From: Candidatus Eisenbergiella intestinipullorum
GTDB taxonomy: Bacteria; Bacillota; Clostridia; Lachnospirales; Lachnospiraceae
DNA: 64,000 bases
NCBI GenBank assembly: GCA_019119815.1
Contig: DWWH01000007.1
Coordinates: 62,001 to 126,000 of the forward strand
Direction: 5' to 3'
Positions 47,327-64,000 of this stretch are shown here, piece by piece (the stretch's first letter is position 1; each line of letters starts with the position of its first letter). A program made the position numbers and the translations under genes. A model generated the notes under the pieces. That model was not told the DNA's origin and searched no databases. It saw only the letters and a program-made list of their open reading frames with translations.

Positions 47327-47345
47327 AGTCAAGGAGGTTTTCACC

Positions 47346-48554
47346 ATGTCATTAAACAAGAAATCCATTGATGATATCAATGTAAAGGGGAAAAGAGTTC
47401 TCTGCAGATGTGACTTCAACGTTCCGCTGAAGGATGGAAAGATCACCGATGAGAACCGTCTGGTTGCAGCCCTTCCCACCATTAAGAAGCTGATCGCTGA
47501 CGGCGGAAAGGTGATCCTGTGCTCTCATCTTGGAAAGCCCAAGGGAGAGCCGAAGCCCGAGCTGTCTCTGGCTCCCGTTGCCGCCCGCCTGTCCGAGCTG
47601 CTCGGCCAGGAAGTGAAGTTCGCGGCTGATCCGGAAGTGGTAGGACCCAACGCAAAGGCTGCTGTTGCCGCCATGAAGGACGGAGATGTGATCCTGCTGG
47701 AGAACACCCGTTACAGAGCGGAAGAGACCAAGAACGGAGAAGCTTTCTCCAAGGAGCTGGCTTCCCTGTGCGACGTATTTGTAAACGACGCTTTCGGAAC
47801 CGCTCACAGAGCACACTGCTCCAATGTCGGCGTAGCGCAGCTGGTTGACACCGCTGTTGTGGGCTACCTGATGGAGAAGGAGATCAACTTCCTGGGCAAT
47901 GCGGTTGAGAATCCGGTGAGACCCTTCGTTGCCATCCTGGGCGGCGCAAAGGTTGCGGACAAGCTGAACGTAATCTCCAACCTGCTTGAGAAGTGCGATA
48001 CCCTGATCATCGGCGGCGGCATGGCTTTCACCTTCCTGAAGGCGAAGGGCTATGAGATCGGCGCTTCCCTGGTGGACGATGAGAAGATCGGCTACTGCAA
48101 GGAAATGATGGAGAAGGCGGAGAAGCTGGGCAAGAAGCTGCTGCTTCCGGTTGATGCTGTCTGCGCCAAGGCTTTCCCGAACCCCATCGACGCTGAGATC
48201 GAAGTGACTGTCTGCGCGGCAGATGCCATTCCCGCTGATATGCTGGGCCTGGACATCGGACCCAAGTCCGCAGAGGAGTTTGCTGAGGCGGTAAAGACTG
48301 CCAAGACCGTAGTGTGGAACGGACCCATGGGCGTATTTGAGAACCCGATCCTGGCAAAAGGAACCATCGCTGTGGCGAAGGCTCTCGCTGAAACGGATGC
48401 TACCACCATCATCGGCGGCGGCGATTCCGCGGCGGCTGTGAACCAGCTCGGCTTCGGCGACAAGATGACCCATATCTCCACCGGCGGCGGCGCTTCCCTG
48501 GAATTCCTTGAGGGCAAGGAGCTTCCCGGCGTAGCTGCGGCAAACGATAAATAA
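47346..48554 (+). CDS. pgk: Phosphoglycerate kinase
   Basis: 402-aa enzyme making ATP and 3-phosphoglycerate. N-domain: [29 protein letters not shown] and ENTRYRAEE. Nucleotide-binding C-domain: [14 protein letters not shown] and [13 protein letters not shown], then [20 protein letters not shown]. Start 47346 has AAGGAGG 8 bases upstream; the upstream in-frame ATG at 47277 lies in the hairpins. tpiA follows 18 bp later. Confidence 0.98.
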
Positions 48555-48572
48555 GAAGGAGGCCATTATATC

Positions 48573-49322
48573 ATGGCAAGAAGAAAAATTATCGCTGGCA
48601 ACTGGAAGATGAACATGACTCCCAGCCAGGCTGTTGAACTGATCAATACCTTAAAGCCTCTCGTGGTTACGGATGAGGCAGACGTGGTATTCTGCGTACC
48701 TGCCATCGACATCATTCCCGCTGTGGAGGCTGCAAAGGGAACCAATATCGAGATCGGCGCAGAGAACATGTATTTTGAGGAGAAGGGCGCCTACACGGGC
48801 GAGATCGCTCCCGATATGCTGACCGATGCGGGCGTGAAGTACGTGATCATCGGACATTCCGAGAGAAGAGAGTATTTCGCTGAGACCGATGAGACCGTAA
48901 ATAAGAAGGTTCTCAAGGCCTTCGAGCACGGCCTTACTCCCATCATCTGCTGCGGTGAGACGCTGACTCAGAGAGAGCAGGGAATCACCATCGACTGGAT
49001 CCGCCAGCAGATCAAGATCGCGTTCCAGAATGTGACCGCAGATCAGGCAAAGACCGCTGTGATCGCTTACGAGCCCATCTGGGCAATCGGTACCGGCAAG
49101 ACCGCTACCACGGAGCAGGCGCAGGAGGTATGCGCGGCAATCCGTGCGTGCATCGGCGAGATCTATGATGAGGCGACCGCAGAAGCCATCCGCATCCAGT
49201 ACGGCGGATCTGTGAACGCGGCTACGGCTCCCGAGCTTTTCGCTCAGCCCGACATCGACGGCGGCCTGGTAGGCGGCGCGTCCCTGAAGGCTGATTTTGG
49301 GAAGATCGTCAACTATAAATAA
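48573..49322 (+). CDS. tpiA: Triosephosphate isomerase
   Basis: 249-aa TIM-barrel enzyme interconverting dihydroxyacetone phosphate and glyceraldehyde 3-phosphate. AGNWKMNM carries the N-terminal Asn-Lys; the catalytic His is in [11 protein letters not shown] and the catalytic Glu in [15 protein letters not shown]. The phosphate-binding end is YGGSVNAA and [17 protein letters not shown]. Length is exactly typical. It is the last gene of pgk-tpiA, with a clear terminator. Confidence 0.98.
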
Positions 49323-49335
49323 GCCTTAAATGGAA

Positions 49336-49371
49336 TCGGACAGGGAAACATTTTCCCTGTCCGAAATTTTT
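49336..49371 (+). terminator. Terminator after tpiA
   Basis: 13-bp perfect stem TCGGACAGGGAAA (49336-49348) with its complement (49352-49364), loop CAT, then AATTTTTTTG. Confidence 0.93.
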
Positions 49372-49457: not shown

Positions 49458-50360
49458 TCATTTGCTTTGGGGATCGGAAGATTTTCCGGCGTTTTTCTCC
49501 GGATCCTCTAGCAGTTCGAAAGGCTCGTCAGAGAAAACGTCGCCCAGTCTGAGGGGGAGCTGCCCTACCAGGTGGCCAAACTCCTCATACACCGAGATCA
49601 GTTTGTTCTGGGAGCGGTTCAGGGACTCCAGATATTCGGAAATGCGGAAGCGGGCGAGCTGGAATTTCAGGGATTCGTCTTCTTTCTTTTTCTTCAGCTC
49701 CTTTTCCACATTCTGGCGGTAATCCAGGGCCTCAAGCTTTGCCTGGTCCGTGATCTTTTCCGCTTCGGAGTGAGCGGTAGAGGTAATGTCGTCCGCATCC
49801 TTTTTGGCCATGAGAAGGATTTCCTCCGCGTCAGACTGGGCGTCGGTAACGATCTGTCTGGCCTGTGATTTCATATTGACCATAAGATCCATAAAAGACG
49901 AATAGTCGTTTTCATAACGCTTCAGCTTTTCCTCATTTTCTTCATATTGGTCGTTCAGGCTGGCAAAGCGCTGACGCTCTGCTTCCAGGGCTTTCTCCCG
50001 CTCGAGAAGCTTTTGCAGCTCTTCTTCCTTCTCTTTTAGCTGCTGCTCTCTGGCCTGCAGTTCACGGTCAATGTCAGCGAGGCGCTGCTTCCCCTCGGAA
50101 AGCTGCTTTTCGTGTTCCGCGGCCAGACGCTGATTCTGCGCGGTTTCCTCCTCCAGCCTTTGGGATTTTTCCTGCAGGCTTTCCTGGAGGCGCTCATTTT
50201 CCTGTCTGACCTCTTCCAGTTGGGTACGCAGTTGGCCTGCGGCCTGCGCCTTCAGGGCGTCTTCCCGGAGATCTTCCAGCTCACGCATCAGATCCTCCAC
50301 ATATTCGTCAACGGTGTCTTTCCGGTAGCCGTTAAATAAAGCGGTGCGAAATTTTTTCAT
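49458..50360 (-). CDS. DivIVA-type coiled-coil protein 1
   Basis: 300-aa protein. The N-terminal FRTALFNGYRKDTVDEYVEDL is the DivIVA/GpsB membrane-curvature-binding signature (F...GY.K..VD.Y). It is followed by 200 residues of heptad coiled coil (about 30-230; QLKEKEEELQKLLEREKALEAE and similar) and a helical end (FRISEYLESLNRSQNKLI). Such proteins scaffold the cell pole or septum. Start 50360 follows GGGAGGAAATCAG. It is the last of eleven same-strand genes, 30 bp after its paralog. Confidence 0.85.
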   Translation of the reverse strand: MKKFRTALFNGYRKDTVDEYVEDLMRELEDLREDALKAQAAGQLRTQLEEVRQENERLQESLQEKSQRLEEETAQNQRLAAEHEKQLSEGKQRLADIDRELQAREQQLKEKEEELQKLLEREKALEAERQRFASLNDQYEENEEKLKRYENDYSSFMDLMVNMKSQARQIVTDAQSDAEEILLMAKKDADDITSTAHSEAEKITDQAKLEALDYRQNVEKELKKKKEDESLKFQLARFRISEYLESLNRSQNKLISVYEEFGHLVGQLPLRLGDVFSDEPFELLEDPEKNAGKSSDPQSK

Positions 50361-50390
50361 CTGATTTCCTCCCATAGATTCAGGTATCTG

Positions 50391-51365
50391 TTAAAAATCA
50401 TCCAGCTTCAGGAGCAGGTCCGAGGCACGTTTCTGGGTCTGGCTGATCGATGCGTCAGCCTTCTGGACATATTCAGCTTTCTGGATAGGTTCCGCCTGCT
50501 GCGGTTCTTCTTCGTCCTGCGCGGGGGCGGCGGGCTCCTCCTGAGCCGTCTCATTTTCAGAAAAGAAAAGCTCTGATGCGGCAGGAGAGGAGGCGGCCGG
50601 AACGATGTCCTGGGCTGCATCCGGAGCAACATCCGGAACCGCATCCTGCATCACATCCGGGGCCGCACCCAGTATCGTATCCGGAGCAACATCCGGAACC
50701 GCATCCTGCATCGTATCAGGAACCACATCCCGGGCCGTATCCTCTGTCACATCCGAAACGCCATCCTGCGGCCCGTCAGAGGAGGCGGGAGAGGGCTGTG
50801 CGGTTTCAGGAGGCCGGTTCTCCGGCTGTGCAGGGCTCTCCTCTGTCGGCGCTGTTTCCGGGCAACATGCCGCAGCGGGCGCGGGGCCGGTGTTGGTATC
50901 CTGCGGATCGCGGGCAGGCTGTTTCAGGTTGGTCTGGATCGCTTCCAGCGTGCTTCGTAGCTGCTGCAATTCGTTCTGCCACAGGGACTGCATATCCTGC
51001 TGCATCTTTGCCAGGTTGTCGGCCCACTGCTGTCTGTCCTCCCGGATCGCCTTCCGCTCTTCTTCCAGGCTGTATTTCAGGGCGTCCCCGCGGGCGGCTC
51101 CGGATGGGGCAGGAGAGGGCGGCGCTTCCTCTGGCCGGTCTTTTTCCAGATCAGAAAGCCTGTTATGCAGGGCGGCAAGAGAGGCTTTCAGTTCTTCGCT
51201 CACGGCCTTCTCTTTTTCCAACTGTGTTTTGAGATCGCTTTTTTCTTTGTTCGCCAGGATGCGGATCGTTTCGTTCTCGTTTTCCAGAGACCGGATGTAA
51301 TCCGTCACATCGTCCTTCTGGTATCCGCCAAATACCGCAGTCCGGAAAATGTCTTTTTCTTCCAT
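50391..51365 (-). CDS. DivIVA-type protein 2 with acidic repeat region
   Basis: 324-aa protein starting FRTAVFGGYQKDDVTDYI, the DivIVA signature, followed by coiled coil (about 30-150). From about residue 155 to 290 it is a Pro/Asp/Ala/Glu-rich disordered region with a repeated DAVPDVAPD unit (VPDTMQDAVPDVAPD, PDVMQDAVPDVAPD). It ends with a short helix (KRASDLLLKLDDF). Start 51365 follows AAAGGAGGACGGATA. It lies 25 bp after the DUF4832 gene with no terminator, so it probably belongs to the same transcript. Confidence 0.82.
   Translation of the reverse strand: MEEKDIFRTAVFGGYQKDDVTDYIRSLENENETIRILANKEKSDLKTQLEKEKAVSEELKASLAALHNRLSDLEKDRPEEAPPSPAPSGAARGDALKYSLEEERKAIREDRQQWADNLAKMQQDMQSLWQNELQQLRSTLEAIQTNLKQPARDPQDTNTGPAPAAACCPETAPTEESPAQPENRPPETAQPSPASSDGPQDGVSDVTEDTARDVVPDTMQDAVPDVAPDTILGAAPDVMQDAVPDVAPDAAQDIVPAASSPAASELFFSENETAQEEPAAPAQDEEEPQQAEPIQKAEYVQKADASISQTQKRASDLLLKLDDF
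50615..50725. repeat. Imperfect 60-bp tandem repeat in the DivIVA2 gene
   Basis: ATCCGGAGCAACATCCGGAA recurs at about 50620 and 50680, 60 bp apart, together with GCATCCTGCATC; shorter ACATCC/GTATCC units fill the region. In protein it is the DAVPDVAPD repeat. Such repeats change length by slippage. Confidence 0.7.
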
Positions 51366-51390
51366 TTATCCGTCCTCCTTTATCTGAAAT

Positions 51391-52794
51391 TTAAAATGTT
51401 ACCCCTTCTTTTCCGTCGTAGGTATAAATAATATTGACGCCGTCGCGATAGTCCTTATTCATACACAGTTCCACTGCGGGCAGCTCCGTCAGGGGATCCA
51501 GGATACCGATCCCGATGCTGTAGCCCGCCCGGAACAGATCGTTAAAGGGGATGGAATTTACAGTAGTGACCGAGGCGCCGGGAAGCAGGTCGGGAAGGGA
51601 CAGGTCGACGCTTTCCCAGTATTTCCGGTTCCCGTCTTTGTCGTAGACGTACATCATGGCGGGCCATTCCAGATATGAGGGCGCGCTTCCCGAATTTTCC
51701 CAGGTCAGCGAGATCTCAAAGGTCTGCTGCACATAGTTGATATCCACCGACATGTGGGAGATCCAGTAGCGGTAACCAAGAAGAGCCTCCACCGCTTCCC
51801 GTCCTTCCTCCACGCCCTCATCCTCCAGAGGGGTATGGGGGCCAAGGAACGTCATGTGCGACTGTTCGATGAGAGAGAGCGTCTGGTCCAGGTCCTGGAC
51901 GAGCATCTGTTCCATGGGAAGAGAGCCGGTAAATTCCCCGCCCACAGGCGCGCTGTTCCAGACCTCCTCCATGGGCTTGTAGGGAAGCTCTCCCTCCGGC
52001 AGTTCATAATATCCGCCGTCCTTCTGCCAGTCCAGCCATTCCTGCGTATCTCCGGCATGGCCGACCATGTCGTTGTACAGTCCCATGTTTCCGTCTGCTG
52101 CGATCACATAATTGCGCCGCATCAGAAAGCGGACATTGAGGAAGGAATCGGAATAGTGGTTCGCGTACTGCCAGCAGGTTTCAATATCGGGCATGGGCGG
52201 AAGGCCTTCCTCATGAAGCGTGTGCCATTCGCCCCAGTGGCCGAGGCTTCCAAGCTCCACATAGGCAAGGAAGGTATCCTGGCTGAAATACGAGCCGAGC
52301 GCCTGCATGGCAGCCTGGTGGGCCGCGATGAAGTCTTCATTGGAATAATCGGGGCAGTAGCCTTTTCCATACTCCGTATCATAGAAAATGCCGTCCCCGG
52401 TCCGCTCATACAGCCATTCGGGGATATCCATGTGGGATTCTTCGCCAGGCCTGTCGCAGACAAAGCGCAGGACCGCGTGTTTTCCCGCTTCCCTCCAGCG
52501 GTCAAGCTGGTATTTTTCTTCCAGCCCTTCGATATCGTATTCCCCTTCCTCCGGCTCCCATTCCGCCCAGGTCATGTTGATGAAGACAAGCTGGGCCTTT
52601 TGGGCGTAATCCTCTTCGGCGGAAGGGGCATAGCCGGTCAGAGGCAGGCCGGAGACGGAATCATCGTAGGAAAAATCCTCTTCCACGGAAAGGTCGTACA
52701 TCCCTGGGATCAGGTAAATGGCGACGGCGGCAAAGAGAACGCCAAGCAGGATGGCAACAGCCGCCGCGATTTTCCATTTCATGCTTTTATCCAT
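51391..52794 (-). CDS. DUF4832 putative glycoside-hydrolase-like surface protein
   Basis: 467-aa protein with one N-terminal membrane helix (WKIAAAVAILLGVLFAAVAI) and a large extracellular domain. It matches the DUF4832 pattern: VFINMTWAEWEPEEGEYDIE (as in TIM-barrel glycosidases that start WAELEP), RFVCDRPGEESHMDIPEWLY, FLAYVELGSLGHWGEWH (WGEW motif), and a C-terminal beta-sandwich (VQQTFEISLTWENSGSAPS). The Glu residues in VELGSLGHWGEW suggest a catalytic site. Start 52794 is set by ATGGAG 7 bases upstream, and it overlaps the DUF4956 stop by 8 bp. Possible polysaccharide hydrolase of the operon; catalytic function unproved. Confidence 0.8.
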   Translation of the reverse strand: MDKSMKWKIAAAVAILLGVLFAAVAIYLIPGMYDLSVEEDFSYDDSVSGLPLTGYAPSAEEDYAQKAQLVFINMTWAEWEPEEGEYDIEGLEEKYQLDRWREAGKHAVLRFVCDRPGEESHMDIPEWLYERTGDGIFYDTEYGKGYCPDYSNEDFIAAHQAAMQALGSYFSQDTFLAYVELGSLGHWGEWHTLHEEGLPPMPDIETCWQYANHYSDSFLNVRFLMRRNYVIAADGNMGLYNDMVGHAGDTQEWLDWQKDGGYYELPEGELPYKPMEEVWNSAPVGGEFTGSLPMEQMLVQDLDQTLSLIEQSHMTFLGPHTPLEDEGVEEGREAVEALLGYRYWISHMSVDINYVQQTFEISLTWENSGSAPSYLEWPAMMYVYDKDGNRKYWESVDLSLPDLLPGASVTTVNSIPFNDLFRAGYSIGIGILDPLTELPAVELCMNKDYRDGVNIIYTYDGKEGVTF

Positions 52795-53470
52795 GATATT
52801 CTCCATTATACTGAATCAGAGTAACATCCTTCACACCTTCCAGAGTCTTGATATTCTCCAGGAAAACGGTATTGTCGCTTCGGCAGTACACTTCCAGCGT
52901 CATTTCCGTCAGATCCCCGCGGAAGGTTTTGGATTTTAACTGATAGCGAAGCTTTTTCATGGCGCGCAGCACCGCGTCGCCGGTCAGCTCGCCCTCATAA
53001 TGGACCACCATGATATAGATCATGCCCCGTTTCTGCCTGTGGTATAAAATATGGATCAGGATCACCATGATGATGCTCGCCGTGATGACCAGGACGTACA
53101 TGCCGGCTCCCGCCGTGATCCCCACGGAAATGGACCAGAAGAGATAGAGAAGATCCATGGGATCCTTGATGGCGGTGCGGTAACGCACGATGGAAAGGGC
53201 GCCGACCATACCGAGGGAGATCACGATATTGGTGCTGATCGCCAGCGTCAGCATACAGGTCAGCACCGACATGCCGACCAGGGTGGTGGCAAAGGAGCGG
53301 GAGAAGACCACCCCTCCGAAATAGATCTGATAGATCTTGTAGATGAAAAGTCCCATCAGCAGCGCGATCAGCATGGAAACGAGGATCTGCGTGGCCGTAT
53401 CCATGGTCAGCCCCTGGCTGCTGGTAAAGGATTCCCATACCGAGTTTTTGAAGTAATCCTGTAGTCTCAT
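52787..53470 (-). CDS. DUF4956 multi-pass membrane protein
   Basis: 227-aa protein with a cluster of hydrophobic segments: ILVSMLIALLMGLFIYKIY, LVGMSVLTCMLTLAI, NIVISLGMVGALSIVRYRTA and YVLVITASIIMVILIHILY. The GMVGALSIVRYRTAIKDPMD segment is diagnostic of DUF4956. A soluble ferredoxin-like C-terminal domain of about 75 aa follows (MIYIMVVHYEGELTGDAVL). Elsewhere this family is found beside VTC-domain and CotH genes, as it is here. An alternative start at 53491 adds 7 residues. Function unknown; a membrane partner of the VTC protein is the main idea. Confidence 0.85.
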   Translation of the reverse strand: MRLQDYFKNSVWESFTSSQGLTMDTATQILVSMLIALLMGLFIYKIYQIYFGGVVFSRSFATTLVGMSVLTCMLTLAISTNIVISLGMVGALSIVRYRTAIKDPMDLLYLFWSISVGITAGAGMYVLVITASIIMVILIHILYHRQKRGMIYIMVVHYEGELTGDAVLRAMKKLRYQLKSKTFRGDLTEMTLEVYCRSDNTVFLENIKTLEGVKDVTLIQYNGEYHG

Positions 53471-53517
53471 AGTCTGTATTTTTCCTCTCATTCTGCCGCA
53501 ACGGGCGTTTCTGGTGA

Positions 53518-54288
53518 TTACCAGGACTTTTCTGATCTGGAGACCAGGAACAGAGCGTCCGTCCGGTAATATAGCTTTTCATAGCACAGCGTGTATTTGG
53601 AGATCGCGGAAAATTCCTGTTCTCCCGTCGGAACGACCTCCTTGACGACCAGGGGGAGGAATTCCGTAAATTTGACTTCCATGATGGTCTTCCCGGGCGG
53701 GATCATCTCGTAGGAAGGAATGTCCGGATCGAAGAGGTCGTTTTCCGGGGCGCAGGCCCTCACATTGGAATCAAAGGTGACCCGCACATCCCCTTCCGGC
53801 AGGATAAACGGCTCTCTTTCATAATCCACGATCACCTTCGGCCGCATCAGATTGGAGGTGCATTCAAACCAGAACTCCCTGCAGAGCGGCTCCTGGTGTT
53901 CCAGAAGGAAATCGTACTTTCCCTCCATGATCCGATCGTATTCCTGTCTGGTCAGGCGGGCGGAATCCTTGTGGATGTAGTTGCCGATCTTGAGCTTGCG
54001 CTCCAGCCGGATGGTGGAATCGCTGCAGTTGTAAATGCGGATCCGGTACTTCTTACGGCAGTTGACGCCCGCCATCTTGTCGTTGTAGGAGCTGTTCCAG
54101 TAATCGTCAAAATAGAGGCTGCGGATGGAATACAGGCCGCCCGCCGCATGGGGATCCCGCTGCATCACGGCCTGGAACCTTTCCTTCAGCGGCTGGCAGT
54201 CCCAGAGGGAAAGATAGTATTTCCATTCGTTGCGGAAAGGACCGCGGATGGAACCTCTGTTGGAGCCGGGATCATTCGTCTTCCACAT
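53518..54288 (-). CDS. VTC-domain protein (polyphosphate polymerase fold)
   Basis: 256-aa member of the VTC/triphosphate-tunnel fold that in yeast Vtc4 makes polyphosphate. The tunnel's charged strands are all present: NEWKYYLSL, YSIRSLYFDD, KKYRIRIYNCS, LERKLKIGNYIHKD, VIVDYEREPFI, GDVRVTFDSNVRA, IMEVKFTEFLP and AISKYTLCYEKLYYR. Basic residues of the strands R.R.., E.K and Y.R are conserved. No transmembrane segment. Start 54288 is chosen because AGGAGG lies 6 bases upstream and the gene overlaps CotH by 17 bp. Whether the bacterial paralogs make polyphosphate or bind phosphate-rich polymers is not known. Confidence 0.87.
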   Translation of the reverse strand: MWKTNDPGSNRGSIRGPFRNEWKYYLSLWDCQPLKERFQAVMQRDPHAAGGLYSIRSLYFDDYWNSSYNDKMAGVNCRKKYRIRIYNCSDSTIRLERKLKIGNYIHKDSARLTRQEYDRIMEGKYDFLLEHQEPLCREFWFECTSNLMRPKVIVDYEREPFILPEGDVRVTFDSNVRACAPENDLFDPDIPSYEMIPPGKTIMEVKFTEFLPLVVKEVVPTGEQEFSAISKYTLCYEKLYYRTDALFLVSRSEKSW

Positions 54289-56077
54289 AGACATCCTCCT
54301 CGATCGTGCCGTCAGCAAGGACGTAGAAGCATTTGGTGCTGGGAATATCTTCCTCATCCGTCCTGTAATGGTCAAACGATTCCTGTATTTTCCCGGATTC
54401 GTTTTTCGCGTAGATCCGGATAAAATACTGCCCTTCCGGAAGAAGGTCGATCTCCGTCTGCGAAACGCGCAGGGCAGGCTCGGAATAGAGGACATTCCGG
54501 AACAGATAATCGGAAGCGATCTCCACGCTGTAGGTAATATTTTCGCTGTCAAAATCATAGGAGGGTTCCCAACTGATAAAAAGCTTTCCATCCGATACGG
54601 AAGGAACGTTGATGTAAAAAGGCATCGGCTTTTCGAGGGATTCCATATAATTCTGATAATTCACGCTGATCTGAGCGCCGATGGAAGAGGCCATCCGGTC
54701 ATATTCTTCTTCCGTAAAGCGCTCATGTACAATATCAGGCATACGATATACGAAAGGCTTTACCGTGGGAGTGTAAGTGTTTATCAGCTCATTGATCCGG
54801 TCCTCCGTCAGATATTCCGTCATCAGGGTCTGGATCGTCTGCGTCAGGAGATTTCGGTATTCCTCATTTTTAAACATCCGCTGATAGAGGACGTTTCCCC
54901 AGTAATTGCTGATCCCAAAGGACCAGCCGGAGTAGGTCTGATCTCCCAGGATGGAATCCTGCAGCGATTTGAAAGAGCCGTCATTGTCCCATGAGATCAT
55001 GTAAAATTTGTCAATGTTTTTGGGGCTGTACAGGAAGTAGTTGCGCGACTGCGTATCAACGTTCCCCATCAGGATATGGAAGCCCATCCAGTAGAACAGG
55101 TTTTCCGTATCAAACCATTTCTCAACCGTGTCTTCAATGGGGATGGAATAATCATTCACATCCTCCAGCATCGAGATCAGCTTGCTGTGATCGGTATCGC
55201 CCTTTACTTCCAGGTAATCTTCAAACGTATCCAGATCATAGGCCGGATCCGTTTCCAGCATGATGGCGTCCTCATATCTGTAAAATTCAAAAAATTCAAT
55301 TTTGTAGAGCTGCCCGTTGTTATCCAGGCCGTGCGTCCGCAGATATTTCTTATTGATCTGCTCCACCTGGGTATAAAGGCCATAGTCCTCAAAGACGCCG
55401 CTTCCGCCCGCAGTTTCATCCTTTACGTACAGATGGACAAACTGCGTACGCGCGGACATCATTTCCGGAATGTCCTTCATCAGGTCGTAGGCCAGTTTAT
55501 TGGTAAAACGGGTTCCGTCAGAAACATGCTTATTGAGGTTGATGGTCCGCTGGTCTCTCCATTCGCCCTTTCCTTCCTTTAATTCGATTTTGTAGTTTTT
55601 CTGTTCGTTTCTGGAAGAGGACTGGCCGCGTATCTTTATGATCGCGTTGGGAACGGTTTCCCCGTAGCCGAGCTCGCCCGGGATCAGCCCGTTTTCATCA
55701 CCGATCTGCAGGATTCCCTCCACCGCGTACTGAGGGATATTATTGTCTTCATACCAGTATTTGGAATAGGTATTCACCTCCGTCCAGGTATGATCCGTAT
55801 TTTCAGCGGAATTTCCCTCCCGGACCGTCAGATACATGGTGACGACGCTGTCCTCGTCATCATCTTCATATACGGATTTATTATCCCGCAGATGATAATC
55901 CTCCACGGACTGGGTAACCTTCTCCACGCCTTCTGCTGCCGAGGATTCCGGGGCTTCGGTTTCCGAAACGGAACCGTCCGGCGACAGGCTGTCAACCGGT
56001 CCTATGAGAAAGACACAGCCGGCCAGCAGCAGAAGCAGAGCACCGACAATGATGAACATCTGCAGATTATTTTTCAT
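54272..56077 (-). CDS. CotH-kinase lipoprotein 1
   Basis: 601-aa exported protein. The N-terminal lipoprotein signal (MKNNLQMFIIVGALLLLLAGC) has an LAGC lipobox. A Ser/Glu-rich spacer follows, then the CotH kinase domain (about 110-470): KIRGQSSSRNEQKNYKIEL, NKLAYDLMKDIPEM, GLYTQVEQINKKYL and the catalytic region GNVDTQSRNYFLYSP with MISWDNDGS (metal-binding Asp). A C-terminal fibronectin-like domain (PSYDFDSENITYSVEIA and GQYFIRIYAKNESG) ends it. CotH proteins phosphorylate proteins of the spore coat; here an exopolysaccharide context suggests a surface target. It is a tandem paralog of the next gene upstream. Confidence 0.88.
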   Translation of the reverse strand: MKNNLQMFIIVGALLLLLAGCVFLIGPVDSLSPDGSVSETEAPESSAAEGVEKVTQSVEDYHLRDNKSVYEDDDEDSVVTMYLTVREGNSAENTDHTWTEVNTYSKYWYEDNNIPQYAVEGILQIGDENGLIPGELGYGETVPNAIIKIRGQSSSRNEQKNYKIELKEGKGEWRDQRTINLNKHVSDGTRFTNKLAYDLMKDIPEMMSARTQFVHLYVKDETAGGSGVFEDYGLYTQVEQINKKYLRTHGLDNNGQLYKIEFFEFYRYEDAIMLETDPAYDLDTFEDYLEVKGDTDHSKLISMLEDVNDYSIPIEDTVEKWFDTENLFYWMGFHILMGNVDTQSRNYFLYSPKNIDKFYMISWDNDGSFKSLQDSILGDQTYSGWSFGISNYWGNVLYQRMFKNEEYRNLLTQTIQTLMTEYLTEDRINELINTYTPTVKPFVYRMPDIVHERFTEEEYDRMASSIGAQISVNYQNYMESLEKPMPFYINVPSVSDGKLFISWEPSYDFDSENITYSVEIASDYLFRNVLYSEPALRVSQTEIDLLPEGQYFIRIYAKNESGKIQESFDHYRTDEEDIPSTKCFYVLADGTIEEDVYVEDE

Positions 56078-56119
56078 GAATCGCTCCTTTCCTTTATTCG
56101 GACAAAATGTTATTCACCC

Positions 56120-57922
56120 TCAACCCTCCGCTATCGTGCCGTCGGTCAGGATGTAAAAGCATTTGGTGGCATAGACCTTGCTTCCGCTGTCCAGGGCATA
56201 GTAGTCAAACGCATCCTGCGTTTTCCCGGATTCATTGGTCGACCGTACTCTGATGAAATACTGGCCTTCCGGAAGAATGTCCATTTCCGTCTCCGGCACG
56301 CGCAGGTCCTGCTGAGAAAACAGGATATTTTCGAACAGGTAGTCAGAAGCAACTTCAACGTTGTAGGTGATTTCCTCATTATCAAAATCATAGGAGGCGT
56401 CCCAGACAAACCGCAGTTTTCCGTTTTCTACCGTCGGAACGCCGATATAAAAGGGAAGCGGCTTTTCCAGAGATTCCAGATACGCCTGATAATTTTCCCA
56501 GATCTCATCCGCCAGATGATCCGCTATCTGCTCATACTGTTCGGGCGTGAGAGGGGCGTACAGGAGATCCGGCATGCTGTATACATAAGGCTTTACCACA
56601 TCACAATAGGTATCGACCAGGCGGTTCACCTTTTCCTTTGTCAGATACTGCGAACGCAGGGTTTCTATGGCCTGCGTCAGGCCGTCCCTGTACTCTTTGA
56701 CCTTGTACATCCTCTGAAAGAGGATATTTCCCCAGTAATTGCTGATCCCCGCTTCCCAGCTTCCGGCGAATCCGTTCATTCCATGGATTGGATCCTCCAG
56801 CGCAGTAAGCGAAGCGTCGTTATCCCAGGAAATGATGTAGAACTTATCCAGATTCAAGGGGCTGTACAGGAAATAATTTCTTGCGTTCGTATCCTCATTT
56901 CCCATCAGGATCTGAAACCCCATCCAGTAGAACAGGTTCTCCGTATCAAACCATTTTTCTACGGTATCTTCGATCGGAACCGAGTAATCGTTCACGTCCT
57001 CCAGCATTTCGATCAGCTTGGAATGATCCGTATTGCCCTTGACCTCCAGATAGGTTTCAAAGGCATCCAGATCGAAAGTGGGGTCAGTGGCAAGCTTTAT
57101 GGCGTCTTCATATCTCAGAAATTCAAAAAACTCGTTTTTATATAACTGGCCGTTGTTGTCCAGTCCGTGCGTTTTCAGATAACGTCCGTTGATCTGCTCC
57201 ACCTGGGTATACAGGCCGTAATCTTCAAAAACACCGCTGCCGCCTTTCGTTTCATCCTTTACATACAGATGGACGAACTGGGTTCTGGCAGACATCATCT
57301 GCGGGATCTCCTTCATCAGGTCATAGGCCAGCTTATTGCGGAAGCGCAGCCCTTCTCCGCCATGCTTGTTCAGATTGATCGTTCTCTGATCACGCCATTC
57401 TCCCTTTCCTTCCTTTAATTCAATCTTATAATTTTTCTGTTCCCTCTTTGTGGAAGTCTGTCCCCTGATCTTCACAATGGCGTTCGGGACATTTTCCCCG
57501 TACCCGACTTCTCCGGGCAGAGGCCCGTTCTCATCGCCGACCTGAAGGATCCCTTCCACCGCGTATTGTTCCAGATCCCGCTCCTCATACCAATATTTGG
57601 AATAGGTATTGACTTCCGTCCAGGTGTGATCCGTATGTTCGGCCGGATTGCCTTCCCGGACGGTCAGATACATGGTGACCACACTGTCTTCCTCATCATC
57701 CTCATAAACGGACTTATTATCCCGCAGGCGATAATCCTCTACGGAAAGCGTCACCTTTTCCACGCTTTCCGACGCGGGAGGGCCGGAAGCTTCCTCTCCG
57801 GAAGCGGCGTCCTCTGAGGACGGACTGCCGTCTCCGCCGGCGGGCACGCTTACCAGGGCGCTGCCGCCAAGCAGCAGGAGCAGAGCGCCGATCAGGAAAA
57901 ACATCTGCAGATTATTCTTCAC
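56120..57922 (-). CDS. CotH-kinase surface protein 2 (paralog)
   Basis: 600-aa paralog of the 54272-56077 protein, alignable along its full length (same KIRGQTSTKREQKNYKIEL, GLYTQVEQINGRYL, GNEDTNARNYFLYSP, IISWDNDAS and fibronectin-like end). The N-terminal helix (NLQMFFLIGALLLLLGGSALV) lacks the Cys of the first paralog's lipobox, so it may be a membrane anchor or cleaved signal instead. The start is GTG at 57922, six bases after GGAAGGAG; it overlaps pelG by 11 bp. Two copies side by side imply a duplication followed by divergence, most clear in the signal and spacer regions. Confidence 0.88.
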   Translation of the reverse strand: MKNNLQMFFLIGALLLLLGGSALVSVPAGGDGSPSSEDAASGEEASGPPASESVEKVTLSVEDYRLRDNKSVYEDDEEDSVVTMYLTVREGNPAEHTDHTWTEVNTYSKYWYEERDLEQYAVEGILQVGDENGPLPGEVGYGENVPNAIVKIRGQTSTKREQKNYKIELKEGKGEWRDQRTINLNKHGGEGLRFRNKLAYDLMKEIPQMMSARTQFVHLYVKDETKGGSGVFEDYGLYTQVEQINGRYLKTHGLDNNGQLYKNEFFEFLRYEDAIKLATDPTFDLDAFETYLEVKGNTDHSKLIEMLEDVNDYSVPIEDTVEKWFDTENLFYWMGFQILMGNEDTNARNYFLYSPLNLDKFYIISWDNDASLTALEDPIHGMNGFAGSWEAGISNYWGNILFQRMYKVKEYRDGLTQAIETLRSQYLTKEKVNRLVDTYCDVVKPYVYSMPDLLYAPLTPEQYEQIADHLADEIWENYQAYLESLEKPLPFYIGVPTVENGKLRFVWDASYDFDNEEITYNVEVASDYLFENILFSQQDLRVPETEMDILPEGQYFIRVRSTNESGKTQDAFDYYALDSGSKVYATKCFYILTDGTIAEG

Positions 57923-59375
57923 GGGCCGCTCCTTCCCTGCGTTCCAGATAATTGCATAATCTGGAGAAAACGCCAAGCTTTTTATTTTCTACCAGGGCGC
58001 TCTTGCACAGCAGATAGTAGGGAAGCCTTCTGGTGTACCACTCCAGACGGATCCAACTGATCAGGTAGAAGGCCAGGCCGCCGAGGAGAAAACCGAAACC
58101 GAAGTAATTAACCTGCCCGAACAGGATCTGCCAGATGGTGGCGAGGATGCTGACGGCGGCAAAGGCAAAGGTGGCAAACAGGGCGCCCACATAGTCCTCG
58201 TAGTACAGCAGGATCAGCATGATCGTGTTGCTGACGGCATACAGGCCGTAGCCCGCGCAGAGCAGGCGGTAGATCCCCATGGAGGTATCGTTGAAGCCCA
58301 GCGGGAGCTGTTCCAGGACGAGGGAGCCGATCACGATGAACAGGAGAGTGGTGATCAACTGCTTGTGCGCGTTGAAGGCGAGCTCCTGGCGCAGCACGGA
58401 GAGCATCTCGTTTTCCGCCTGATCGATGTCCCGGATGGAACCGTTATCGTTGAAAAGGCTGTAATAGTTCCGGTACAGGGGATAGAACCGGACCTCCACC
58501 GAGGTCACGAAATTGATGGTGGTGATCAGGATGGAGAAAAAGGCGCACAGGGCCGGGACATCGTGCATGGGAGCCCCCCAGAACAGGCCTTCCACCTGAA
58601 CCTGGAGCGGGCCGAAATACATGATCACAAGGTGCGCAAACAGTCCCAGGTTGATGAAGATCCCGACAAGGGTCAGCAGCCGGTATTTATCGAGCCAGCG
58701 CAGGAAGGAAAAACGGCTTCCTTCGCTTCTGGGGAAATATTTCAGAAGCTGGCGGAAATACAGGGTCATCAGAAGCCCGTAGGCCAGGATCACGCACAGG
58801 AACAGGGTGGTGATCGTGACCTGTCTGGTCAGCACCAGAAGCAGGGCGAGCAGCAGGCCGCAGGCCAGGGAAATGGCGAAGTCCCGGACCAGGACCTGAT
58901 AGTCCTTCAGGGCCGTCAGGTAATTCATCTCCATCCATACGATGACCAGGATGAGATAGAACCACAGGCAGAGCAGACGGTAGATCACGAGCACCCCGGA
59001 AAAGTGCAGGAAGACGGCCCAGATCAGTCCGCCTCCCACCAGAAGGATGGAGGTGCTGCCGTAGAGGCTCGGGATGATCCGTTCCGGCCTTTCCTCGTAC
59101 AGCATGTCGGAAACGTAACGGGTGACCGGCATGTTGAAAACGCTGGTGGTGGTCAGGGAGGCCAGCAGGCAGTAGGTGAGCATACAGTTTAAAAGCTCCC
59201 TGTCGTGCCGGGACATACCGGCAAGCTGGGACAGGAAAGCCACGCTGACCAAGAGCACCACGCCCAGGATCATGGGCCCTGCGCAGATCAGGCCGGCATA
59301 GCCATACGCGCGGCACAGGCTGAACAGTCCTTTTTTTGTAAACAGTTTTTTCAGTGAGAAGCCGATCCCAGCCAA
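57912..59375 (-). CDS. pelG: PelG-like exopolysaccharide transporter
   Basis: 487-aa polytopic protein with about twelve hydrophobic segments, of the PelG family (MOP-type exporters). The N-terminus MAGIGFSLKKLFTKKG and GYAGLICAGPMILGVVLL are diagnostic. In Pseudomonas, PelG with PelD and PelE exports Pel polysaccharide. Here it lies next to pelF and overlaps it by 25 bp, as in Pel operons. pelD and pelE are not in the window and may lie upstream (right of 64000). Confidence 0.9.
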   Translation of the reverse strand: MAGIGFSLKKLFTKKGLFSLCRAYGYAGLICAGPMILGVVLLVSVAFLSQLAGMSRHDRELLNCMLTYCLLASLTTTSVFNMPVTRYVSDMLYEERPERIIPSLYGSTSILLVGGGLIWAVFLHFSGVLVIYRLLCLWFYLILVIVWMEMNYLTALKDYQVLVRDFAISLACGLLLALLLVLTRQVTITTLFLCVILAYGLLMTLYFRQLLKYFPRSEGSRFSFLRWLDKYRLLTLVGIFINLGLFAHLVIMYFGPLQVQVEGLFWGAPMHDVPALCAFFSILITTINFVTSVEVRFYPLYRNYYSLFNDNGSIRDIDQAENEMLSVLRQELAFNAHKQLITTLLFIVIGSLVLEQLPLGFNDTSMGIYRLLCAGYGLYAVSNTIMLILLYYEDYVGALFATFAFAAVSILATIWQILFGQVNYFGFGFLLGGLAFYLISWIRLEWYTRRLPYYLLCKSALVENKKLGVFSRLCNYLERREGAAREE

Positions 59376-60775
59376 TTTGTCATCACCTCTGTATAAGCGT
59401 TTTTGTAGTTTCGTATCATGTCATTGTGGCGGAAATAAAGCTCCACCCGTTTCTTTCCGATCTGCCCCATCTGGTAGCGTTCCTCCGTATGGGTGCACAT
59501 GCGTTCCATGGCGTTACAGAGCGCCTCCCGGTCCATGGGGGGCACGCAGTAGCCGGCGCAGCCCAGCTCGTCGCCCTCCATTCCGTTCAGAAGCTCTCTG
59601 CAGCAGCCCACGTCCGTGGTCACACAGGGACGGCCCGCGGCAAAGGATTCCAGGACGGAGAGGGGCTGCCCCTCCGAGATGCTTGTGAGGATGGTAAAAT
59701 CCAGCTTTTCCATATATTCCAGGACGTTTACCATACCGGTAAAATAGATCTCCTGGACACCGAGCTGTTCCGCCAGTTCATAGCATTCCTTTGCGTACTG
59801 CTCATCGTCCTCCGGCCCGATCACATGGAGCCGGACGTTTGTCATCCGGAACCGCAGCTCGTAGAAGGAATAGATCAGCGTCTTGATATCCTTGATGGGA
59901 GCCAGCCGGACGATGGCTCCGATATCAACCCAGCCATCCGCCTTTTTCAGCGGGATGTTGCAGAAGCGTTCGTAATGGATCCCGTTTGTGACCACGCGGC
60001 AGCGCTCCGGGGAGCAGCCGATCTCAATCTGGGTCTTCCTGGCGTTGTCAAACAGGCTGGTGATCATGGATGCCTTGCTGTATATGGCATCGGAGAGCAT
60101 GTAGAAAAAGCGCACCCAGAACCGTTTGAAGGCGGCGGGAACCCATCTGGCCCGGATGATCTCTTCTTCCCGTTCCCTGGTATAGATCCCGTGTTCCGTC
60201 AGCATGAACGGGGCGTGGTATTTATAGCTTCCCAGCCTGGCCATCAGGCCGCTGTAGCCAGTGGCAATGGCATGGTAGAGATCCGCCTTCGGGATATCCT
60301 GGCTGATGGTATACAGCACGGGAAGGAACATGGAACGCAGCGTATGGAACATGTCGGAAAACGCCGTATAGGGATAGTCCTTCTCGCAGATCCGGATCAG
60401 GATATTGAGGAATTCCTCACTGGTCAGAAAGGACATGGGCGGTATTTTCTTATCGTTGTACATTTCAAAGAGCACCTCCCAGTCCGGGCTCTTACAATGT
60501 ACGAAATCTGTCAGCGCCTGCAGCTCCTTTCCCGCAAATTTATATTTTTTTCCGTCGGAGGTAAGCTTCAGGGCGTCCTGCAGGAAGATTTCCTTTACTT
60601 CCACGATGTTTTCCGGCAGTTCGTACTTGAACTTCCCTCTGTCCTCGGAGGAAGCGCCAATGGTCAGGAGCACGAATTCATGCTCCGGCATGGCCTTGAT
60701 ATACTGGTGCATCCAGGTGGACACGCCGCCGGTTACATAAGGGTAGCACCCTTCAAGAATGACACAGATACGCAT
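59351..60775 (-). CDS. pelF: PelF-like glycosyltransferase (GT4)
   Basis: 474-aa retaining glycosyltransferase of the PelF family, the polymerase of Pel-type exopolysaccharides. The N-terminal MRICVILEGCYPYVTGGVST (loop with the conserved GGV-S) is diagnostic. The GT-B fold's second half has IVRLAPIKDIKTLIYSF and the donor-binding E-x7-E motif SEGQPLSVLESFAAG with PCVTTDVGCCRELL. The start at 60775 follows AGAGGGAAAAC; an extension to 61036 has no ribosome binding site. It lies 25 bp after a DUF2194 gene. Sugar donor unknown (UDP-GlcNAc/GalNAc in known systems). Confidence 0.92.
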   Translation of the reverse strand: MRICVILEGCYPYVTGGVSTWMHQYIKAMPEHEFVLLTIGASSEDRGKFKYELPENIVEVKEIFLQDALKLTSDGKKYKFAGKELQALTDFVHCKSPDWEVLFEMYNDKKIPPMSFLTSEEFLNILIRICEKDYPYTAFSDMFHTLRSMFLPVLYTISQDIPKADLYHAIATGYSGLMARLGSYKYHAPFMLTEHGIYTREREEEIIRARWVPAAFKRFWVRFFYMLSDAIYSKASMITSLFDNARKTQIEIGCSPERCRVVTNGIHYERFCNIPLKKADGWVDIGAIVRLAPIKDIKTLIYSFYELRFRMTNVRLHVIGPEDDEQYAKECYELAEQLGVQEIYFTGMVNVLEYMEKLDFTILTSISEGQPLSVLESFAAGRPCVTTDVGCCRELLNGMEGDELGCAGYCVPPMDREALCNAMERMCTHTEERYQMGQIGKKRVELYFRHNDMIRNYKNAYTEVMTNWLGSASH

Positions 60776-60800
60776 GTTTTCCCTCTGTTTTTTGTTGCCG

Positions 60801-62705
60801 TCAGTGGTTCGTATTGTCGGTTTCTGTTTCCGGCGTCCCCCGCCGGATGACCACATGGGACGAGGCGGCGGAGACCAGATACAGGCCGCCGCCCATATCC
60901 TGCAGCGTGCCTCCGCTGATGCAGGTTTCAGGATCTTCCGGAAGCCTTCCGTTGATGCGCAGGAAAAGAAAGGCCTCGTCCTGGAAATTGTCCAGATCCA
61001 GGATGATCTCCTCCTGCGTGACCATCTGGTCCACATCCAGATAGTAATATCGCTGTACCGCGCCGGCCATTTCCGATGCGGTCAGGTTGCGGATCTCCGG
61101 GGCGGCCGTATACAGCCAGTCCAGATATTCCTCCAGCCGGCCGCGCATCGCTTCCCAGCCGGCTTCGGCGCCGCGGTCCACGTCCAGCACATCGTCCGGA
61201 TGCTGGAAATGGGAGTTGACATAGTGGAGGTTCAGCTCGGAAAGGGCGGAAATCTCCATAAACGGATCGATGATCAGGCCGGAGATCACACGGGGGGTTT
61301 CCACGATGCCGTCCTGCGCCACCTCGAATTCCTGGGTATATTCCACGTCTCCTTCAAAGTAGATGCTGGCGATGGCCCGGATTTGAGGAAAATCCTCCGA
61401 CAGGATCTGCCTTCCTTCCTCCGACAGGATATTGGAGGGCGGAACATAAACCTGGGGCGTGACGCCGGGATACAGGTCTTCCGTAAAGGAGATCAGCTCT
61501 TCGATGGAAGCGCGCATGTCTTCCCGGCTCTCCCAGTAATCATAGTCAAACAGACGTTCATAGGTTCCCGGAACATAATCTTCCCCGAAACCGGCGTCAA
61601 AGCCTTCCCTGCACAGTGGGATGTGGTTATAGCCGTGCAGCCCGATCTCGCCTCCCAGACGCAGAAGGGAGGAACCGAAATACTGGAACCGCTGGGTATT
61701 CATATTGGAGGAAAAGGGACCTTCCAGATTGTCCGAATAATCCTCGATGACCATCCCGCTGTAGCGGATGCCGTATTCCTGTGCAAGCTCCTGCAGATCC
61801 GGCCACCAGATATTGGTATAAAAATCGGAAACGCTCAGCCCGTAATCCCGTTCAATATAGGTGCTGGTACCGGAGGGGACGGGAGAGGGGAAATCATCCA
61901 GGTAAAAGGCGCTCGCGTTGATCACCGGCCAGGAAAAAGCGTCGGAAAGAAGGCTGTACGCAGCGGCGTACAGGCCGCGGTAGGCCTTCCCGGTGATCCC
62001 GAAGTTCATGAACACCACCCTGCCGTCCCCATGCTCCCGTTCCCAGAGGATGGGAAGCTCCCGTTCGTCGCTGCTGACGAGGTGAACGGTGCAGTCGCCG
62101 GACAGGCTCAGGGTCAGCGCGGATTCAAAGGGCTCTTCGATGAGAAAATCCTTTCCCTGTCCTCCCAGCAGCAGGTCGGAGCTGCACCGGAAGCCGGGAA
62201 GCTCATACATTTCCCAGCCGGATTCCTGAATCCCCATCTGGACGCCGAGAGAACGGAAGAAGTTATCGCCCTGGGGCGGGATATAGATCATGAGGCCGCC
62301 GCCGTCCGCCACCCAGTCCATGAGCGCAAAGGCCTGGTCGCCAAGGATATCATATTCCTTGATGGCGGCCACCACCTTCTCATACCGGCCGGGGGAGGGC
62401 ATGGCCTGTTTGGACAGATCCACGAAATCCGCGGTCACATGGAGCTGCCCGAACAGGGAACGGACATCCTCTTCGGCAAGGACGGATTCCGGCTCCGCGC
62501 TGTTGCAGAGGACCAGACATTCCGCCCGCCCGTCTGTTTCCTTCTGGATCTCCGAAAAGGTCTCCCCGGGAAGGAGCGAAACCAGCGGTTCCTCCTGCGC
62601 ATAACGCCCGTAGAACTGCTGGCCGATCAGGGCGACGGAAAGCAGGACGAACGCCAGACATATGATGATGACAGGGAAAAAGCGAAATCTTTTGTGGGTT
62701 CCCAC
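60801..62705 (-). CDS. DUF2194 putative polysaccharide deacetylase 1
   Basis: 634-aa protein with one N-terminal membrane helix (FFPVIIICLAFVLLSVALIG) and an extracellular body. A flavodoxin- or glutamine-amidotransferase-like region covers about 50-260. The deacetylase-like half carries SAFYLDDFPSP (metal-ligand Asp pair), GLHGYNHIP and NSHFQHPDDV (His and Asp ligands), resembling the DUF2334/NodB family. The GTG at 62705 follows AAGGAGGATTTAA. In Pel systems PelA carries a deacetylase, so this is a good functional stand-in; activity is inferred. Tandem paralog follows upstream. Confidence 0.85.
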   Translation of the reverse strand: MGTHKRFRFFPVIIICLAFVLLSVALIGQQFYGRYAQEEPLVSLLPGETFSEIQKETDGRAECLVLCNSAEPESVLAEEDVRSLFGQLHVTADFVDLSKQAMPSPGRYEKVVAAIKEYDILGDQAFALMDWVADGGGLMIYIPPQGDNFFRSLGVQMGIQESGWEMYELPGFRCSSDLLLGGQGKDFLIEEPFESALTLSLSGDCTVHLVSSDERELPILWEREHGDGRVVFMNFGITGKAYRGLYAAAYSLLSDAFSWPVINASAFYLDDFPSPVPSGTSTYIERDYGLSVSDFYTNIWWPDLQELAQEYGIRYSGMVIEDYSDNLEGPFSSNMNTQRFQYFGSSLLRLGGEIGLHGYNHIPLCREGFDAGFGEDYVPGTYERLFDYDYWESREDMRASIEELISFTEDLYPGVTPQVYVPPSNILSEEGRQILSEDFPQIRAIASIYFEGDVEYTQEFEVAQDGIVETPRVISGLIIDPFMEISALSELNLHYVNSHFQHPDDVLDVDRGAEAGWEAMRGRLEEYLDWLYTAAPEIRNLTASEMAGAVQRYYYLDVDQMVTQEEIILDLDNFQDEAFLFLRINGRLPEDPETCISGGTLQDMGGGLYLVSAASSHVVIRRGTPETETDNTNH

Positions 62706-62745
62706 TTAAATCCTCCTTCCTTCCGATACAGACAGCCGACAGCCT

Positions 62746-64000
62746 TCAGTCCCCGGACGCAAGGCCGATCGAGATCTCAGCCGCATCCGCCCTTAACAGA
62801 TACAGTCCCCCGGCCAGCTCCGTCAGCTCCCCGCCCTGTACGCCGGCGGGGCTGCCTTCGTTGATCCGGACGAAAAGCCAGGCTTCATCCTGAAAATTGG
62901 AAAGGCTGATGCGGATCTCGTCTTCCAGCCGTTCCACCTGCGGATCCAGATAATAATACCGCTGTACGGCTCCGGCCGTTTCCGTCCCGGTGAGATTCCG
63001 GATCATGGGAGCGGAGGTATACAGCCAGTCCATATAGTGATCCAGGTTATTTCTCATGGTCTCCCAGCCCAGCGCCGCGCCGCGGTCTTCGTCCAGCGTA
63101 TCGTCCGGGTGCTGGAAATGGGAGCTGACAAAGTGCATGTTCAGCTCGGAAAGCGCCGCGATCTGCATATAGGAATCCAGGACATAGCCGGAGATCACCC
63201 GCGGGGTCTCCACGATGCCGTCCGCCGCGACCTCAAATTCCTGCTCGTATTCCTGCTCGCCGGTAAAATAAATACTGGCGATCGCCTTCACATCCAGGAA
63301 ATCCTCGGCCAGGATCTGCCGTCCTTCTTTGGAGAGGATGTTGGAGGGCGGGACATAGACCTGGAAGGCTTCGTCGGGATAAAGCTCCCGGCAGAAACGG
63401 TCCAGCTCCGCCATCGCGGCCCGGATGTCGTCGGGGCTTTCCCACGGTTTATAGGTGTCGAATTCATCCCCATAGTCAAAATTATCCAGTACCAGGGGCA
63501 TGTGGTTATAGCCGTGGTAGCCGATCTCGCCGCCCATATCCAGAAGATCGTTGCCGAAATACCGGAAGCGCTGGATATCGCTGCTTCCCTCCAGCGGAGC
63601 ACTGTTTTCATCGGAATAGTTCTCAATGACCAGCCCGGTGTAGCGGACGCCGTATTTTTCCGCCAGGTCCTTCACGTCCGGCCACCAGACGTTGGTGTAG
63701 AAGGTCCCGATATCCATATGGTAGTCCTGTTCGATATATTTTCCTTCTCCCACGGGAACGGGAGAGGGGAAATCGTCCAGATAAAAAGCGGAGGCATTGA
63801 TCACCGGATAGACGCAGACGTCGGAGAGAAGACTGTAGGAGGCGGCGTAAAAACCGCGGTAAGCCTTCTCAAAATAGTTCAGGTTATTGACGACGACCGT
63901 CCCTTTGCCGTAGCTGCATTCCCAGATGATGGGAAGCTCCCGGTCGTCCGCGCTGACCAGATGGATGGTGCAGTCTTCATAGAGGGAAACGGTGCTGGAG
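62746..64000 (-). CDS. DUF2194 putative polysaccharide deacetylase 2 (5' partial)
   Basis: Paralog of the 60801-62705 protein. Reading continues uninterrupted through the right window edge, so the N-terminus is missing; the last 418 or so residues are present. Before the first visible ATG at 63804, the frame reads LVSADDRELPIIWECSYG and KAYRGFYAASYSLLSD, matching the paralog, so it is coding there too. Same ligand motifs: ASAFYLDDFPSP, YHGYNHMP, SSHFQHPDDTL. The 40 bp to its paralog and shared orientation make it the first gene of the operon visible here. Two deacetylase-type proteins may act on different sugars or steps. Confidence 0.82.
   Translation of the reverse strand, partial: SSTVSLYEDCTIHLVSADDRELPIIWECSYGKGTVVVNNLNYFEKAYRGFYAASYSLLSDVCVYPVINASAFYLDDFPSPVPVGEGKYIEQDYHMDIGTFYTNVWWPDVKDLAEKYGVRYTGLVIENYSDENSAPLEGSSDIQRFRYFGNDLLDMGGEIGYHGYNHMPLVLDNFDYGDEFDTYKPWESPDDIRAAMAELDRFCRELYPDEAFQVYVPPSNILSKEGRQILAEDFLDVKAIASIYFTGEQEYEQEFEVAADGIVETPRVISGYVLDSYMQIAALSELNMHFVSSHFQHPDDTLDEDRGAALGWETMRNNLDHYMDWLYTSAPMIRNLTGTETAGAVQRYYYLDPQVERLEDEIRISLSNFQDEAWLFVRINEGSPAGVQGGELTELAGGLYLLRADAAEISIGLASGD

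Follow-up and report, generated by a model that had tools for sequence, protein, structure and literature searches.

The window analysed here, a stretch of 64,000 nucleotides from the Lachnospiraceae species Candidatus Eisenbergiella intestinipullorum (draft genome, 94 contigs), carries at its end a minus-strand operon for the exopolysaccharide Pel. The operon is of a known type, of which it is a variant with an added layer of predicted control, and its comparison with other genomes corrects the scope of the accessory module of CotH, VTC, and DUF4956 genes that it contains. It very probably belongs to the cyclic di-GMP (c-di-GMP)-controlled Pel operons of Gram-positive bacteria, in the branch with an 'epimerase-type PelD'. 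A first-pass annotation of this DNA, made from the letters alone, had described an eleven-gene operon at 49458-64000. The eleven open reading frames are all there, on the minus strand and in the families then named, and these names are supported by Pfam or profile matches of the window proteins, with a DivIVA match for the last gene only. The extent of the unit was underestimated: since the operon begins beyond the end of the window with pelD and pelE, it has 13 genes, in the order pelD-pelE-ADA-ADA-pelF-pelG-cotH-cotH-VTC-DUF4956-DUF4832, followed by two DivIVA-like genes. The features within the window, in the order of the operon, are:

62746..64000, minus strand: PelADA-type deacetylase (DUF2194), copy 1, with its 5' end outside the window (PF09960, 523 bits)
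60801..62705, minus strand: PelADA-type deacetylase (DUF2194), copy 2 (PF09960, 495 bits)
59351..60775, minus strand: pelF, GT4 glycosyltransferase, the Pel polymerase (NF038011, 351 bits, cut-off 100)
57912..59375, minus strand: pelG, MOP-type exporter with about 12 transmembrane segments (PF16933, 423 bits)
56120..57919, minus strand: cotH copy 1, predicted membrane-anchored extracellular CotH kinase (PF08757, 235 bits)
54272..56077, minus strand: cotH copy 2, predicted CotH kinase (PF08757, 242 bits)
53518..54288, minus strand: VTC-domain polyphosphate polymerase (PF09359, 122 bits)
52787..53491, minus strand: DUF4956 protein (PF16316, 46.5 bits)
51391..52806, minus strand: DUF4832 protein, of the extracellular TIM-barrel glycoside hydrolase type (PF16116, 56 bits)
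50391..51365, minus strand: coiled-coil protein with a DivIVA/GpsB-like N-terminal signature (FRTAVFGGYQKDDVTDYI) that is kept in homologous loci
49458..50375, minus strand: DivIVA-like coiled-coil protein, encoded by the gene that closes the operon (PF05103, 37 bits, cut-off 28)
49336..49364, no strand assigned: terminator hairpin of 13 pairs with its T tract on the plus side, separating the operon from tpiA, which converges on it

A number of observations support the identity of this locus, called Pel-like at first pass, as a Pel operon in which pelD, pelE, PelADA, PelF, and PelG are all present. First, the genes matched by the PelF (NF038011) and PelG (PF16933) models are adjacent, and PelF, whose start is at about 60775 and not at an upstream ATG of the same open frame, is 56% identical to that of Streptococcus intermedius. 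Second, pelD- and pelE-type genes, whose search upstream had been proposed as a check, both lie on the contig beyond the window. The PelD-like protein (736 amino acids) has an N-terminal epimerase-like part and DUF4118 matches, and its full-length sequence gave no match in a PDB search; the PelE-like protein (306 amino acids, two transmembrane segments) is 27% identical to its positional counterpart in S. intermedius. Third, the deacetylase role suggested for DUF2194 is borne out by 42% identity to the protein that occupies the PelADA position in S. intermedius, by the match of copy 2 to PDB 9ZAU (E 4e-53), which is the structure of Bacillus cereus PelADA (PMC13254593), and by the D-H-H metal site and catalytic residues retained in both copies, which are 50% identical. 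The window border at 64000 cuts the first of them, which goes on beyond it; the whole gene (L005:16746-18623) encodes 625 amino acids with the motifs LDDFP, HGYNH, PRVISG, and SHFQHPDD. Fourth, the DUF4832 protein is indeed of a hydrolase family: it is 34% identical over its full length to the protein encoded at the corresponding place in S. intermedius, which was shown to be active (PMC12345266).

The genes are tightly packed, with intergenic gaps of at most 44 bp and overlaps of 25 bp for pelF/pelG, 8 bp for pelG/cotH (GTG start at 57919), and 17 bp for cotH/VTC (ATG at 54288). These three overlaps are those given in the first-pass annotation, and a fourth, of 11 bp, has to be replaced by one of 20 or 8 bp between DUF4956 and DUF4832, depending on the start codon. 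The absence of a convincing internal terminator also holds, because intragenic terminator-like sites on the minus strand are about as many as in shuffled sequences; no internal promoter or terminator of the operon stood out against the shuffles. The convergent glycolysis genes pgk and tpiA (47277-49322) end against the operon at the 49336-49364 hairpin.

The combination of genes highlighted at first pass is not new, because it was published in Whitfield 2020 and in the work on S. intermedius. The former described Gram-positive pelDEADAFG operons, with a group in streptococci and clostridia that adds cotH, a polyphosphate polymerase, DUF4956, and DUF4832, and linked the cotH-bearing group to a PelD that is extended at its N-terminus by an epimerase-like domain (PMC7112168). 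Gene-by-gene deletions in S. intermedius showed that pelDEADAFG is required for Pel and that the DUF4832 protein is an active hydrolase, that deletions of DUF4956 and CotH shift the amount of Pel in opposite directions, and that deletion of the polyphosphate polymerase gene leaves aggregation and Pel intact (PMC12345266). The locus described here shares with these systems the genes, their order, the epimerase-type PelD, and the separate PelADA deacetylase (PMC7112168, PMC12345266), and its cotH, polyphosphate polymerase, DUF4956, and DUF4832 genes are contiguous with pelG, as in the published accessory set. Compared with the S. intermedius locus (L208), PelF, PelG, both ADA, CotH, VTC, DUF4956, and DUF4832 are 34-57% identical, whereas PelD and PelE are 22-27% identical. 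The second PelADA, the second CotH, the two DivIVA-like genes, and a c-di-GMP-I riboswitch in the leader set it apart from these systems, and PelD has an intact c-di-GMP site, whereas streptococci have lost theirs. The PelD site and the PelADA family (9ZAU) are shared with the pel operon of B. cereus ATCC 10987 (PMC7112168, PMC13254593), which differs in carrying GalE and, adjacent, a PelAH-type hydrolase; for the CotH/VTC/DUF4956 set, streptococci and clostridia are the described hosts, not B. cereus (PMC7112168).

The added control consists of this riboswitch, which precedes pelD on the minus strand (contig 94, 129741-129836; 50.5 bits, gathering threshold 35) and is the only c-di-GMP-I riboswitch found in the genome. 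It also occurs directly before pelD in L129, L130, L131, L137, and L149, and in L148 before the gene that precedes pelD, while the three streptococcal loci tested gave none at the gathering threshold. In four Eisenbergiella loci, a T-tract terminator begins exactly 10 nucleotides inside the aptamer, such that the 5' half of the terminator includes the last 10 nucleotides of the aptamer. The ligand-bound aptamer would mask this half, from which we infer an ON switch. The second level of control is the known one: PelD keeps the residues R689xxD692 and R720 (RxxD...R), which align with R363, D366, and R395, needed for c-di-GMP binding in B. cereus PelD, and these I-site residues are kept in 53 of 63 aligned PelD, the streptococci being among those that lost them. 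In two relatives, the divergent strand upstream of the Pel operon carries a further c-di-GMP-I riboswitch (L129:1577-1673 and L130:252-348, both minus); no second one was found above threshold in the genome of the window. Next to pelD, in divergent orientation, lies a cluster of EAL, GGDEF, GGDEF-EAL, hybrid histidine kinase, and response regulator-HD genes (L006:3958-12778; contig 94, 129958-138778), which is probably a local supply of c-di-GMP.

When 84,980 species genomes were scanned with a PelF alignment, the best 80 of more than 588 loci were taken; 56 of them have enough downstream sequence for gene counts. These loci are the closest to the query, and the fractions therefore describe this branch rather than Pel operons as a whole. 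The association of PelF and PelG with CotH, VTC, and DUF4956, which the first-pass annotation had proposed to check, is not due to chance: the trio directly follows pelG in 50 of the 56 loci, and VTC is never found there without DUF4956 (0/56). DUF4832 is present in 42 loci, two CotH in 15, two ADA in 7, and the DivIVA-like genes in 7, and the order pelD-E-ADA-F-G-cotH-VTC-DUF4956-DUF4832 is identical in S. intermedius and dozens of Clostridia. One could still regard the trio as a passenger co-inherited with Pel by chance, given that 6 of the 56 loci lack all or part of it and that the majority of module copies are located elsewhere. This explanation was already disfavoured, and we consider it very improbable in the face of the position directly after pelG in 50 of the 56 loci, of the unbroken pairing of VTC with DUF4956 there, of the overlaps between the genes, of the fusion of PelG and CotH into one frame in seven loci, and of the Pel phenotypes of two of the module genes in S. 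intermedius. A rearranged Pel locus of the same genus (L113; G003:C2:116000-133181) has an ADA-PelF chimeric frame, PelG joined to DUF4956, a broken DUF4832, and neither CotH nor VTC; it looks like a decayed locus or remnant.

Within the module, the CotH fold match is to the crystallised CotH (5JD9/5JDA), and the site residues align. Copy 1 matches 5JD9 with E 2.6e-10, retains N-x-D-x4-N and W-D-x-D, and has a single N-terminal transmembrane segment, and copy 2, 69% identical to it, has an N-terminal LAGC lipobox-like signal and a weak C-terminal FN3 match. Because of these N-terminal anchors, both predicted kinases should be extracellular. The VTC profile matches Vtc4 (3G3Q, E 1.6e-20), and K124, R183, R185, R259, R270, E305, and K332 align with K200, R264, R266, R361, R373, E426, and K458, the active-site residues of yeast Vtc4. 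The polymerase fold and active site are thus those of the eukaryotic VTC complex, from which the bacterial protein differs by the lack of an SPX domain. For DUF4956, five helices are predicted in the membrane region, one of which ends with the invariant R103 and R105, and the C-terminal part matches ACT and MgtC domains; its AlphaFold2 model has a predicted local distance difference test score of 84. A fold search for resemblance to the membrane domain of the VTC complex gave, among the 50 matches listed, ACT-like/ferredoxin-like matches to the C-terminal domain only.

PelG and CotH form a single open frame of 1069-1103 amino acids in seven loci (L137, L139, L140, L141, L144, L151, and L166), with a lipobox-like segment between the two parts. 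These come from seven separate assemblies, which makes a single sequencing error unlikely. In the AlphaFold2 model of the fusion, a linker of low confidence joins the CotH domain to a PelG part of 12 long helices, which matches MATE/Wzx transporters in a fold search. The fusion state changes 6 times on a tree of 83 rows, where fused and unfused states interchange.

The module is not restricted to Pel. That CotH/VTC/DUF4956 is a recurring neighbourhood was stated at first pass and is confirmed in 98 related genomes, where DUF4956 lies within 2 kb and on the same strand of 99 of the 103 VTC genes and CotH within 4 kb of 56 of the 103. Counting a PelF when it scored over the cut-off within 15 kb, only 4 of the 56 CotH-bearing copies have one nearby; some copies are on short contigs (G009:C174 is a fragment of a Pel operon), such that a few Pel neighbours were missed by this count. 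The trio was stated in 2025 not to occur outside Pel loci (PMC12345266), and this is not correct for the genomes examined, because 52 of the 56 copies have no nearby PelF. The genome studied here has two further copies itself (L007:9212-14594 and L008:7636-13635), one placed between a cluster of polysaccharide pyruvyl-transferase/glycosyltransferase genes and YfhO, which comes after it, the other before MBOAT and DltD-like genes. In seven loci the order is VTC-DUF4956-CotH-c8-HEAT-GT2 synthase, shared with Clostridium perfringens NELoc-2, which thus also has the module beside a processive glycan synthase but with a GT2 'chitin synthase', a HEAT-repeat protein, and a protein of roughly 700 amino acids instead of PelF/PelG, and whose DUF4956 was annotated as tubulin/FtsZ (PMC2879425). 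That c8 (722 amino acids) and the HEAT protein (c7) are diverged PelD and PelE was considered and rejected, as profile comparison found no similarity; c8 had no match in a PDB search. About 15 loci have a Cthe_2159-type carbohydrate-binding protein after VTC-DUF4956, in the place of CotH (e.g., L078, L097, L103, L104, L106, L214, L216-L220, L222, and L223), sometimes behind a two-component pair. Among 14 control genomes, exactly the same three are matched by VTC and by DUF4956 (a Bacteroides, Corynebacterium glutamicum, and Methanosarcina acetivorans), and the pair therefore crosses phyla and domains.

These contexts bear on the possibility that the trio serves regulation or stress responses, through phosphate sensing or through protein phosphorylation by which PelD/PelF would be tuned, and leaves polymer and matrix untouched. 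The S. intermedius mutants of DUF4956 and CotH alter the amount of Pel and do not abolish it, the ACT/MgtC-like domain is a fold often used in small-molecule sensing, and two-component genes are often found upstream of VTC-DUF4956 elsewhere. Yet CotH is predicted to be extracellular and therefore could not reach the cytosolic PelD and PelF, the full polymerase tunnel is retained in VTC, and the partners of the module outside Pel are secreted-glycan or carbohydrate-binding genes. On balance we find a purely regulatory role unlikely.

The two genes that close the operon encode coiled-coil proteins with F...(V/L)(F/L)(G/N)G(Y/F).K..V.(E/D)Y near the start, an FxGYxKxxVxxY signature that resembles that of DivIVA/GpsB. 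The N-terminus of the 50391..51365 protein is 41% identical over 66 amino acids to that of the next one; a Pfam search of this protein gave no PF05103 (DivIVA) match, and the last protein scores 18.7 with the DivIVA N-terminal model TIGR03544, below the cut-off of 22. Such genes are found in Eisenbergiella and a few related Lachnospiraceae only, with 2 changes on the tree, and all seven loci that have them also have a doubled ADA or CotH. They could be a separate housekeeping division locus merely trailing the operon, as their lack in 49 of the 56 complete Pel loci would suggest, but they closely follow DUF4832 in related genera and in all Eisenbergiella loci reaching that far. Furthermore, a PF05103 scan of this genome finds the last protein as its only DivIVA match, under the cut-off, and relatives of the genus without the tail genes (G003, G011, and G012) give no PF05103 match; DivIVA-like genes are therefore not fixed housekeeping genes of the genus, and we hold the housekeeping explanation to be improbable. 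By the same model, no clear full-length canonical DivIVA is seen in G001, G003, G010, G011, and G012, of the same genus, one of which passes the cut-off only with fragments summed. The conserved signature in a few related genomes weakly suggests polar or septal placement. The CslA of Streptomyces is a precedent for DivIVA beside a polysaccharide synthase.

We propose that Pel production involves 1) c-di-GMP binding to the leader aptamer, which would block the overlapping intrinsic terminator and allow the 13-gene transcript; 2) c-di-GMP binding at R689xxD692...R720 of PelD, which would activate PelF, kept at the membrane by PelD, PelE, and PelG; 3) polymerisation by PelF of a Pel rich in N-acetylgalactosamine, export by PelG, and removal of some acetyl groups by the two PelADA, presumably at the outer face; 4) trimming or release of the polymer by the DUF4832 hydrolase; 5) action of the two membrane-anchored CotH kinases at the PelG exit, where VTC-DUF4956 would be a membrane polyphosphate-making pair supporting a phosphate-dependent step, the three genes being a portable module for several secreted glycans and not for Pel only; and 6) tethering of the complex to curved or septal membrane by the pair of DivIVA-like coiled-coil proteins. 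The first four steps, drawn from sequence features and the published biochemistry of homologues, are as probable as the identity of the operon itself. For the fifth, conservation and synteny make it plausible, at a clearly lower confidence and somewhat less likely than not, that some component of the matrix is phosphorylated by CotH acting together with polyphosphate, and it is possible that the secreted polymer or its anchor is phosphorylated. The tethering role is slightly more speculative still.

Several points weigh against parts of this scheme. The S. intermedius VTC deletion without aggregation phenotype is a warning for the role of polyphosphate, and no simple linear pathway fits the opposite effects of the DUF4956 and CotH deletions on Pel levels. 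The PelG-CotH fusion may arise easily; it supports closeness but speaks only modestly for an interaction. That the riboswitch turns expression on is a prediction deduced from the overlap of aptamer and terminator. The confinement of the DivIVA-like genes to one group and their low DivIVA scores at the genome level are further points of this kind. A bolder version of the fifth step, in which the module would serve secreted glycans in general as an exo-phosphorylation machine, would have VTC make polyphosphate from cytosolic ATP, DUF4956 pass it across the membrane, and CotH use it outside, where ATP is absent, on emerging polysaccharide or matrix proteins, with polyphosphate itself being displayed in some lineages where a Cthe_2159-type protein takes the place of CotH. 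Taken together, these details make a rather improbable whole.

In the literature searched, we found no report of a c-di-GMP riboswitch before pelD, of a single PelG-CotH frame, of the spread of the module beyond Pel, or of DivIVA/GpsB-signature genes closing a Pel operon in one Lachnospiraceae subgroup. The operon adds a predicted transcriptional control by c-di-GMP atop the known control through PelD in gut Lachnospiraceae, whose c-di-GMP outputs are poorly known. It also ties the CotH, VTC, and DUF4956 trio to several secreted-polysaccharide machines and not to Pel alone, and the role of the module thereby becomes testable across Pel, GT2-synthase (NELoc-2-like), and capsule-type hosts.

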